A stretch of DNA of 64,000 nucleotides from an uncultured Dechloromonas sp. (GTDB taxonomy: Bacteria > Pseudomonadota > Gammaproteobacteria > Burkholderiales > Rhodocyclaceae). This document shows, piece by piece, positions 50,962-53,092 of the stretch. Location: contig NZ_CAMFKO010000011.1 in NCBI RefSeq assembly GCF_945957265.1, positions 1 through 64,000 on the forward strand. The letters run 5' to 3'. The notes beneath the pieces were generated by a model, which searched no databases, was not told where the DNA came from, and was given only the letters and a program-made list of their open reading frames with translations. Position numbers and translations under genes: made by a program. Each line of letters opens with the position of its first letter. Within the stretch, counting starts at the first letter, position 1.

Positions 50962-51242
50962 CAGCGACCGCCCTTTCTGGCCGCCAGCGGCTGCACGACA
51001 CGCCCCAGCGCGTCCGGCGCGACCATGAGCAGGCGCTCGCGCGCGATCTTTTCAATACGCGGATGATTCGCCCAGGTCGACATTTCCAGTTGCAGCTGGC
51101 CGTATTCGATATCCAGCTGGCGCGCCCGCTCCTGCTCCGCCTCCAGCCCCTGGAAGAGCTTGCGCGCGCGATGCTGGGAGGTCACCGCACCCAGCGCGCA
51201 AACGACGACGATCAGGAGAAGGATCATATTGAAACGCAGCAT
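50961..51242 (-). CDS. ftsL: Cell division protein FtsL
   Basis: A 93-residue bitopic protein that forms a coiled coil with FtsB within the FtsQLB complex. It has a single helix (about residues 4-22) followed by heptads (LFQGLEAEQERARQLDIEYGQLQLEM) and a conserved NHPRIEKIARERL end. The ATG at 51242 (TGATG with the rsmH stop) is preferred; a GTG one codon earlier would overlap by GTGA but is too close to the GAGAAG ribosome site. Confidence 0.93.
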   Translation of the reverse strand: MLRFNMILLLIVVVCALGAVTSQHRARKLFQGLEAEQERARQLDIEYGQLQLEMSTWANHPRIEKIARERLLMVAPDALGRVVQPLAARKGGR

Positions 51243-52162
51243 CACAGCTTCTCGGCCACACGCATCACGGCGCTGCGCGCCCGCGGATTGGCCCCGACCT
51301 CGGCCGCAGTCGGCTTGATCGCCTTGCCGACCAGGTGCAGCTTCGGCTTGGGCAACTGATCGACGCGCAGCGGCAGGTTCTTGGGCAAGGTATCCGGGGT
51401 CGATTGGGCGCGCATGAAGTTCTTGACGATGCGGTCTTCGAGCGAATGGAAGGAAATCACGGCCAGACGGCCACCCGGCTTCAGCAAGGCAAGCGCCTGC
51501 GGCAGGGCTACTTCCAGCTGGCGGAGCTCCTGGTTGATATGAATCCGTAGAGCTTGAAAGCTGCGCGTCGCCGGGTCCTGCCCTGGTTCACGGGTGCGCA
51601 CGGCCTCGCGTACGAGGGCCGCGAACTGACCTGTTGTGACAATAGGTTGTTCGACCCGAGCAGCCACAACCTTCTTTGCAATCTGGAAAGCAAACCGTTC
51701 TTCGCCATAGTTTCTAATGACCTCCGTTATGTCTCTCACCTCGGCCCGCGCCAGCCACTCGGCCGCCGTCTCGCCCTGCGTCGTATCCATACGCATGTCG
51801 AGCGGCGCGTCGTAGCGGAAGCTGAAGCCGCGTTCCCCGTCGTCAATTTGCGGCGACGACACCCCCACATCAAACAAAATCCCATCGACACCGGAAATCC
51901 CGGCCTCCTGCGCGGCCTCGGCCAATTCGCCGAAAGCGCGATGCACCAGCCGAAACCGGGAATCGCCAATCGCCTCGCCCGCGGCAATCGCCTGCGGGTC
52001 GCGGTCGAGCGCCACCAGGCGCCCCTGCTCGTTCAAACAGGAAAGAATGCGACGGCTATGACCGCCGCGGCCGAACGTGGCGTCGACGTAAACGCCGTCA
52101 GCCTTGATCGCCAGGGACTCTACCGCCTCATCGAGCAGCACCGTGACGTGGGCGCTGCTCAT
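51242..52162 (-). CDS. rsmH: 16S rRNA (cytosine-1402-N4)-methyltransferase
   Basis: Methylates C1402 of 16S rRNA in the ribosomal P-site. The 306-residue protein has VTVLLDEAV, the SAM motif [24 protein letters not shown] and the C-terminal [11 protein letters not shown]-like [14 protein letters not shown]. Its GAGG ribosome-binding sequence lies inside the right arm of a 19-bp perfect inverted repeat that directly abuts the ATG (see 52163-52431), which is unusual for a dcw gene; mraZ and rsmH are normally close together. Confidence 0.96.
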
Positions 52163-52431
52163 GGGGTCTGCCCTCGCCCGGATCGCGGTTCGCGTTGTGC
52201 CGGCAGGCAGATGGGCGCGAGGCGCAGGGCGCCGGCCCGGGCCACTCCCAGGCCCACGCGTGCAACGACGCGAACGCGGCCAGCCGGGACAACCCGGAGG
52301 GCAGGGGTCTGGCGGGGCTCACCGCTGCGTTGCCGGCCGTTTGTGCAGATGACTGCACGGCACGACCGGCGCCTGGCGTTGCATCCCCGCCAGACCCCTG
52401 CGCAACCGTGAGCCGGGCGAGGGCAGACCCC
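52163..52431. repeat. Nested inverted-repeat element between mraZ and rsmH
   Basis: The 271-bp mraZ-rsmH gap is filled almost exactly by a structured element. Outer arms: a 19-bp perfect inverted repeat (52163-52181 with 52413-52431), with imperfect pairing continuing about 12 bp inward. Inner arms: a 17-bp perfect inverted repeat (52301-52317 with 52385-52401) that shares the GGGGTCTG core with the outer arms. Inside the inner loop is GTGCAG-ATGA-CTGCAC (52343-52358), and CCGGG-ACAA-CCCGG (52284-52297) and GGGCC/GGCCC hairpins lie in the other half. There is no coding potential. Either a MITE/REP-like insertion or a folded leader; the rsmH ribosome site is inside an outer arm. Confidence 0.85.
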
Positions 52432-52433
52432 TA

Positions 52434-52880
52434 TCACAGCACCAGGTCTCCGAAGCCGGGCGGCATGTCGCCCGAAAGGGCCTCCGCCGCCAGGTCGTTC
52501 TGCCGCTTCCAGCCGGCCTCGCTCCAGATTTCGAAGTGCGAACCCATGCCGACCAGGTAGACGGTTTTTTCCAGCTGGGCGTAATCGCGCAGCTCGGGGG
52601 CAACCAGGATGCGGCCGGCCGAATCCGGCTCCTCGGTGCGGGCGTTACCGACCAGCACGCGCTTGATCGACGCGGCACGCGGATCGAGGCTGGAGGCCTT
52701 CAGGATCTGGTCGCGGATCGGCTGCCAGGCAGGCGACGGGTAAAGCAGCAGGCAGCGATGCGGGTGCGCCGTCAGGACGAGCGAGCCTTCGCTGGCGGCG
52801 AGCAGGGCTTCGCGATGCCTTGCCGGAATGGCAAGCCGCCCTTTCGCATCCAGACTGAGTGCTGCAGCCCCCTCGAACAT
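52434..52880 (-). CDS. mraZ: Transcriptional regulator MraZ
   Basis: The first dcw gene, a ring-forming AbrB-like DNA-binding protein that represses its own operon. The 148-residue protein has two MraZ repeats with the DxKGR signature (LDAKGRLAIPARHR, and DSAGRILVAPELRDYA in the second). The ATG at 52880 gives the conserved MFEGA start. Its target repeats lie just upstream (52888-52927). Confidence 0.95.
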   Translation of the reverse strand: MFEGAAALSLDAKGRLAIPARHREALLAASEGSLVLTAHPHRCLLLYPSPAWQPIRDQILKASSLDPRAASIKRVLVGNARTEEPDSAGRILVAPELRDYAQLEKTVYLVGMGSHFEIWSEAGWKRQNDLAAEALSGDMPPGFGDLVL

Positions 52881-52887
52881 CCTTCGT

Positions 52888-52954
52888 CTCGCTCCCCGTT
52901 TACCCACTTTTCAACACGTTTACCCACTTTAAAACAACAAGCCACCTCCGTCAA
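52888..52954 (-). promoter_or_regulatory. mraZ promoter with four tandem 10-bp MraZ boxes
   Basis: On the minus strand, TTGACG (52949-52954), a 17-bp spacer and TAAAGT (52926-52931) form a sigma-70-type promoter. Directly at and after the -10 come four head-to-tail decamers: GTGGGTAAAC, GTGTTGAAAA, GTGGGTAAAC, GGGGAGCGAG (52927 down to 52888). Ten-base periodic GTGGG repeats are the known MraZ operator, so repression by blocking the promoter is expected. The remainder of 52881-53183 holds only the upstream gene's terminator. Confidence 0.82.
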
Positions 52955-53092
52955 TAGAAAAATCTCGGATTTTTTCTTATGCAACAAGGACTTACGGAGG
53001 GTTTTGATGGTCATTATTTGAAAATTTTTCCCTTAAAAATCAACACGAGAAAATGGACACTTAAAGTGACTTATCAGGAGTTGATCGAAGTC

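Follow-up and report, generated by a model that had tools for sequence, protein, structure and literature searches.

A two-hairpin palindromic element with MITE-like features at the mraZ-rsmH junction of an uncultured Dechloromonas, and its family in the order

The mraZ and rsmH genes of the uncultured Dechloromonas analysed here are separated by a 269-bp palindrome which, as judged from its sequence, is a member of a dispersed betaproteobacterial family of two-hairpin palindromes of about 268 bp. The element is almost certainly an insertion, because it is absent from all 35 same-genus relatives read, whose rsmH frame directly follows the mraZ TGA. It is likely a mobile insertion with IS5-type ends. 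The window, i.e. the whole stretch of DNA that was analysed, covers 64,000 nucleotides (positions 1 to 64,000 of the forward strand of contig NZ_CAMFKO010000011.1). The features found at the junction are the following:

52434..52880, minus strand: mraZ (148 amino acids plus stop), intact, 97-98% identical in the three nearest genomes
52163..52431, minus strand: two-hairpin palindromic element, almost certainly inserted, 269 bp, 75% GC (inverted repeats, fold z-score, absence in relatives, match to model R1)
52404..52431, minus strand: outer 5' arm in the mRNA (terminal inverted repeat), 28 nt, starting 2 nt past the mraZ stop
52301..52401, minus strand: hairpin 1, base stem of 17 bp, perfect; part of model R1
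52291..52300, minus strand: central linker, CCTCCGGGTT in the mRNA sense, at a position conserved in family alignments
52191..52290, minus strand: hairpin 2 region, roughly equivalent, in the family, to the reverse complement of hairpin 1 (alignment with locus L002, paired plus/minus R1 matches)
52163..52190, minus strand: outer 3' arm in the mRNA, containing the rsmH ribosome-site sequence GAGGG (52175-52171)
51242..52162, minus strand: rsmH (306 amino acids), intact, with a new ATG start adjoining the element (junction comparison)
52159..52437, minus strand: 92-codon frame that spans the element, starting at the putative ancestral rsmH GTG and ending in a TGA which overlaps the current rsmH ATG

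The outer arms (52163-52190 and 52404-52431) are 28 nt long and 93% complementary, with perfect pairing at positions 1-19 and mismatches at positions 20 and 23. Their coordinates confirm the 19-bp perfect inverted repeat of the preliminary description, which runs from two bases (TA) after the mraZ stop to the base before the rsmH ATG. Repeat search also recovered the second perfect inverted repeat, of 17 bp and with a common core, that had been reported inside it together with smaller ones: the inner arms (52301-52317 and 52385-52401) are perfectly complementary over 17 nt, GGGGTCTG is present in outer and inner arms alike, and further smaller inverted repeats lie within the element. The predicted minimum free energy of its fold is -206.7 kcal/mol versus a shuffle mean of -156.0 (z -8.3), and because none of 100 shuffles is equally stable the modelled fold is not due to chance. 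A search of the window and of a second copy (locus L002, see below) against Rfam gave no match at gathering scores. No terminator-like site was found in 52100-53050, where the sole promoter-like site (52954-52926) is upstream of mraZ. The sequence GGGGTCTGNCC has 7 matches in the genome of the window, two of them the element's own arms, a count that is uninformative since the backwards control also gives 7.

On the minus strand the mraZ TGA occupies 52436-52434 and the rsmH ATG 52162-52160. The junction reads GTGA, as in the relatives, followed by the element and then by ATGAGC. MraZ was detected in all 60 genomes searched, sampled at one genome per species. The 35 same-genus relatives read (29 loci plus 6 more) lack the element between mraZ and rsmH, and in each the rsmH frame runs on directly from the mraZ TGA, which bears out the earlier statement that the gap between the two genes is normally short. 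The rsmH start of these relatives appears to be a GTG overlapping the mraZ TGA (GTGA). Note that at locus L282 an ATG situated 17 nt further on is an alternative candidate start, and that only the junction is visible at L018, where 28 nt of contig remain beyond mraZ codon 148. In three genomes from other families of the order (L285-L287) the distances between matched protein ends are 38, 21 and 62 nt, rsmH start included. The putative old rsmH start (GGAG plus GTG) is still present in the mraZ end of the window, and the rsmH start differs from that of the relatives by about 6 nt. At a further locus (L284, G020:C1:56700-57800) the match to mraZ is broken up over different frames, through either a frameshift or misassembly.

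At E up to 0.01 a DNA search gave matches, some of them short, in 12 of 41 genomes, one of which is the own genome. Model R1, a covariance model of hairpin 1 with 112 positions and 32 pairs, was built from 14 sequences including that of the window. It matches in 44 of the 101 genomes of the taxonomic family (E up to 0.01) and in 102 of the 300 genomes of the order, distributed over 53 of 134 genera (E up to 0.001); the two genome sets overlap and both include the own genome. The remaining 198 order genomes gave no R1 match at E up to 0.001 with strict filters. Five high-copy genomes, chosen for that property, have 43, 52, 97, 22 and 79 R1 matches, while the 4 matches of the own genome correspond to two elements. 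A pattern scan of named genomes returned at least 120 matching stretches, of which 80 were listed; among the matches listed are Thiobacillus, Sulfuritalea, Gallionellaceae, Nitrosomonas and Rhodocyclaceae, as well as records labelled Gammaproteobacteria, Guyparkeria, Halothiobacillaceae and Thiotrichales. A single Streptomyces record with the hairpin 2 pattern (L184:1011-1034), possibly a chance match, is also among those listed. A plasmid search that used the 270-bp element of another genome (L152) as query gave no match.

Outer arms were obtained at 48 of 59 family loci, the other 11 being dropped for inadequate outer arms. The family plan consists of two hairpins of ~100 nt that flank a CCCTTCGGG-type linker and are closed by arms of ~26-30 bp, with a total span of 253-278 bp, mostly 266-275. 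Since R1 matches often come, in many copies, as plus/minus pairs about 98 bp apart, hairpin 2 appears to resemble the reverse complement of hairpin 1. The alignment of 48 rows, window included (A2), has changes on both sides in 83 of 91 consensus pairs, counts which depend on a MAFFT alignment with divergent stems. Junction motifs, internal-loop motifs and the linker are conserved across the family while stems change. Compared between copies, the arms reach a median pairwise identity of 31%, and in 12 of the 48 copies the two arms pair without mismatch over 26 pairs. Two variant forms were observed. The inner hairpin 2 of L131:1468-1742 and L156:1471-1739 is, by eye, inverted relative to other members, as recombining or template-switching palindromes might show, and L047:1477-1631 is a short form of 155 bp that retains the arms and hairpin 1 alone.

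The organization of the copies is MITE-like. They have terminal inverted repeats (28-nt arms, 93% complementary in the window; arms at 48 of 59 family loci), no transposase gene inside (the 92-amino-acid frame is without Pfam match), a dispersed distribution (two copies in the own genome and 22-97 R1 matches in five others) and an empty site in relatives (35 of 35 read). The family is best read as MITEs because, in addition, one arm subtype equals one end of an IS5-family insertion sequence: the TAGGGCGTGTTCACAGTA-subtype arms (L043-type) agree base for base for 18 bp with one end of an 822-bp element (L096), whose other end differs from this arm by one base. The 822-bp element occurs twice in the genus (L096:1501-2322 and L099:1501-2322), has the ends TAGGGC.TGTTCACAG and carries two reading frames, with a frameshift probable. 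Its L099 copy matches the IS5-family model NF033580 in pieces of 131.7 and 114.1 bits (cut-off 110) and its frames carry DUF4096 and DDE_Tnp_1, a domain content that identifies it as an IS5-family insertion sequence. Mobilisation of the palindromes by an IS5-type transposase is likely on these similarities. No partner for the arm of the window copy (GGGGTCTGCCCTCG) was found among the insertion sequences identified here, and the own genome, which is 91% complete, gave no match to NF033580 as a resident IS5_3 transposase. Identical TTA or TAA flanks are present in 9 of 48 family copies, whereas 500 partner shufflings average 3.0 and never exceed 8. The flanks of the GGGG...CCCC palindrome of the window copy, ATA on the left and ATG on the right, are not identical. 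TGA/TGA, AT/AT and TA readings of a target duplication were weighed for this copy and none is clean.

Gene context could be assigned at 45 of the 48 loci with a crude GC-frame ORF caller: 27 copies lie between tandem genes, 10 between divergent and 8 between convergent ones. The genes next to family copies are unrelated; three of the flanking pairs we take, by recognition of their termini, to be parA-parB (L111), pyrB-pyrC (L145) and sdhB-sdhE (L131). The upstream stop lies at most 4 nt from the element edge in 14 of 19 tandem loci (8.5 expected, P 0.0005), a test that covers 19 of the 26 tandem loci with the window excluded, in which gaps were entered by hand and the null was devised after seeing the data. 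When the dropped misses L140 and L146 are added, the figures become 14 of 21 versus about 10 expected (P 0.014-0.017). Five tandem loci were excluded with one gap unresolved in each (L123, L132, L139, L143 and L144); L123 and L143 would count as stop-side hits. At the 11 loci with spacers of at least 15 nt the stop adjoins the element in 6 cases versus 1.6 expected (P 0.002), a result unchanged by the additions. The next start is within 5 nt of the element in 7 of the 19 tandem loci. Because TAA and TAG fit a TNA-type target, the placement at stop codons may be explained by insertion at stops and survival of harmless insertions, with no need for special targeting.

The second copy of the own genome is the following:

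L002:1373-1636 (G000:C5:108033-108296): element with 28-bp perfect arms between rsmE-like and ppk2-like genes, presumptive names given by recognition

The rsmE stop is inside its 5' arm and a ppk2 ribosome-site match inside its 3' arm. The two genes are 257 nt apart in the own genome, whereas in the relatives read they are spaced by 2-5 nt in 12 of 16 cases and overlap in 4 of 16. By this comparison the L002 copy splits a tight rsmE-ppk2 junction, like the window copy at mraZ-rsmH.

The best ribosome site of rsmH is GAGGG (52175-52171), 8 nt before the ATG, within the outer 3' arm. In a model of the full leader its probability of being unpaired is 0.0 and that of the rsmH ATG is 0.51, in agreement with the earlier proposal that the outer duplex buries the ribosome site and reaches the AUG. 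A modelled ribosome at the mraZ stop opens the site weakly (0.0 to 0.19), while one on the upstream stop of L002 raises accessibility from 0.0 to 0.58. Ten junctions of the author's selection were modelled: the best ribosome-site match is inside the 3' arm in nine and weak (-2.2 to -3.0 kcal/mol) in five, and a ribosome at the upstream stop raises site accessibility in all ten, and geometry by itself would account for some increase. With a ribosome placed on the old GTG of the window, the model gives 0.22 for the site, but the ATG falls from 0.51 to 0.10; a ribosome in the middle of the element leaves the site closed (0.0); and one at the end of the 92-codon frame (12 nt from its stop) gives 1.0 by construction, its footprint covering the site.

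The proposed course of events is the following. The element would have been moved in trans by an IS5-type transposase, and its insertion was probably tolerated because translational coupling survives, since ribosomes arriving from mraZ could unwind the outer stem and free the rsmH ribosome site in its 3' arm. When stopped at the mraZ TGA, such a ribosome would cover the start of the 5' arm, with which that 3' arm pairs, and the closed outer stem would bring the mraZ stop and the rsmH start together. The old rsmH start (GGAG plus GTG), intact in the mraZ end, would open the 92-codon frame, which runs through the element as far as the TGA overlapping the new rsmH ATG, where ribosomes could be handed on. 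This frame is a possible ribosome path. A gene inside the element was considered and rejected: 60% of shuffled sequences also keep the frame open, and a Pfam search of its 92 amino acids gave no match. Either the closed stem or the chance frame would pass ribosomes across the 270-nt insertion. Preserved coupling as the main consequence of the insertion is put forward tentatively, as a reading with somewhat less than an even chance, lowered to that level because the site value of 1.0 holds by construction; it is neither a demonstrated nor a selected function. A more general reading, more doubtful, is that these palindromes are coupling-neutral wedges, with a stop placed by one arm and a ribosome site by the other. 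If so, a mobile element could colonise tightly coupled junctions of essential operons across the order without uncoupling them, the junctions concerned being mraZ-rsmH, rsmE-ppk2, parA-parB-like and pyrB-pyrC-like.

The preliminary description had also proposed a folded leader that gates translation of RsmH, and by coupling that of FtsL-FtsI, apart from MraZ. As a selected RNA gate, the fold would keep this translation low or conditional. The mechanical part of this proposal is possible, the modelled ribosome site being fully paired and the ATG half paired in a very stable fold with strong covariation in the family. Note, however, that a spectacular RNA fold with strong covariation can belong to a mobile element maintained at the DNA level, and that the GU:AC ratio helps to separate the two. 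The arms vary between copies yet remain complementary, and 1248 outer-arm pairs include 25 GT and 31 AC. Read in the mRNA sense at the 27 tandem loci (window included), whose transcription orientation was taken from the crude ORF caller, 702 pairs include 15 GU and 14 AC. Were the pairing selected in RNA, GU would be expected to prevail over AC; it does not, and the arm pairing fits inverted repeats kept as DNA, not RNA. A cis-regulatory leader would be expected to tolerate GU above AC (here 15 versus 14 of 702) and to accompany the same gene in relatives (here 0 of 35), and these observations give no sign of selection for the fold. The family copies beside unrelated genes and the lack of an Rfam match at gathering scores also argue against it. 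A selected RNA gate is thus improbable and an evolved regulatory function is not supported; coupling that may have outlasted an insertion is a better reading of the apparent gate than an evolved switch. The preliminary description had held a regulatory role unlikely if relatives had a short unstructured spacer and the element occurred in many scattered copies, which is largely the situation across relatives, although R1 detects no more than two copies in the own genome.

An element that hinders rsmH expression and is merely tolerated, i.e. a recent, mildly harmful insertion after which rsmH would depend on residual, uncoupled initiation, is rather unlikely. Its presence in one genome among those read and the buried ribosome site, opened weakly (0.19) by a ribosome at the mraZ stop, agree with this reading, as does the absence of a terminator-like site in the element, for which reason transcription probably continues through it. 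That 7 of the 19 resolved tandem loci have the following gene's start no more than 5 nt away, and that the second own copy repeats the arrangement at rsmE-ppk2, suggests instead that such wedges are often harmless. A host function exerted by the DNA, e.g. as cruciform or for protein binding at operon junctions, with IS5-like ends serving for spread alone, would account for unpaired and junction motifs conserved across the order while stems change and for the nearly constant length (253-278 bp, mostly 266-275). It has a low probability: copy number is patchy and highly variable, 198 of 300 genomes are without R1 match (E up to 0.001, strict filters), and a signal for mobilisation would explain the conserved core just as well. 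The takeover of the rsmH start by a MITE/REP-like insertion, as envisaged previously, is upheld for MITE-like by the empty site in 35 of 35 relatives, the dispersed family and the IS5-type ends in one subtype, and fails for REP, since neither size nor anatomy (269 bp, 28-nt arms) is REP-like. REP/BIME systems have palindrome units of about 20-40 nt and a RAYT gene in the genome. Palindromes of this type moved by a RAYT (Y1) transposase share with the present element that they are palindromic and dispersed, and are a most improbable explanation here: REP units are far shorter than the copies of about 268 bp, which moreover end in arms that in one subtype recur in a DDE insertion sequence.

If the element is a mobile insertion, as preferred here, it represents a MITE-like betaproteobacterial family, also matched in records labelled gammaproteobacterial, in which the two-hairpin core is fixed and the arms are exchangeable. 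The case of mraZ and rsmH shows that elements of this kind can come to separate genes that otherwise overlap within an essential operon, and the split is a natural experiment on how far translational coupling is a matter of distance or of structure. A literature search over titles and abstract openings found no paper describing the present family, which is apparently unnamed. The comparisons that follow draw on excerpts of the cited sources. RUP and BOX of Streptococcus pneumoniae are short non-autonomous repeats, tightly folded and with paired terminal repeats, and the ends of RUP resemble a resident insertion sequence (IS630-Spn1); they are thought to affect co-transcribed genes (PMC3049150). 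The present family is likewise folded with paired ends. It differs in size and composition, RUP being 107 bp and AT-rich and BOX modular (PMC3049150), versus about 268 bp and, at the window copy, 75% GC, and also in its two-hairpin plan, its IS5-type ends in one subtype and its order-wide occurrence. ERIC and RU-1, RU-2 and RU-3 are small mobile repeats likened to MITEs, sometimes forming in-frame fusions with host ORFs; they measure 103-168 bp, occur in Enterobacteria, and the excerpt describes no order-wide two-hairpin core with exchangeable arms (PMC2759123). The MITEs of Thiomargarita are described as either Correia-like or bearing 10-bp direct repeats (PMC4853749). An RNA feature tied to the dcw operon is also known in Rhodobacter sphaeroides, namely the long leader with the UpsM sRNA, which by the title of its account precedes the dcw cluster and is not a mraZ-rsmH insertion (PMC5089854). 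MITEAba12 resembles the present family in that its terminal repeats match a resident insertion sequence, its probable mover, and differs by its length of about 113 bp, its 9-bp duplications and its Moraxellaceae hosts (PMC6382973).
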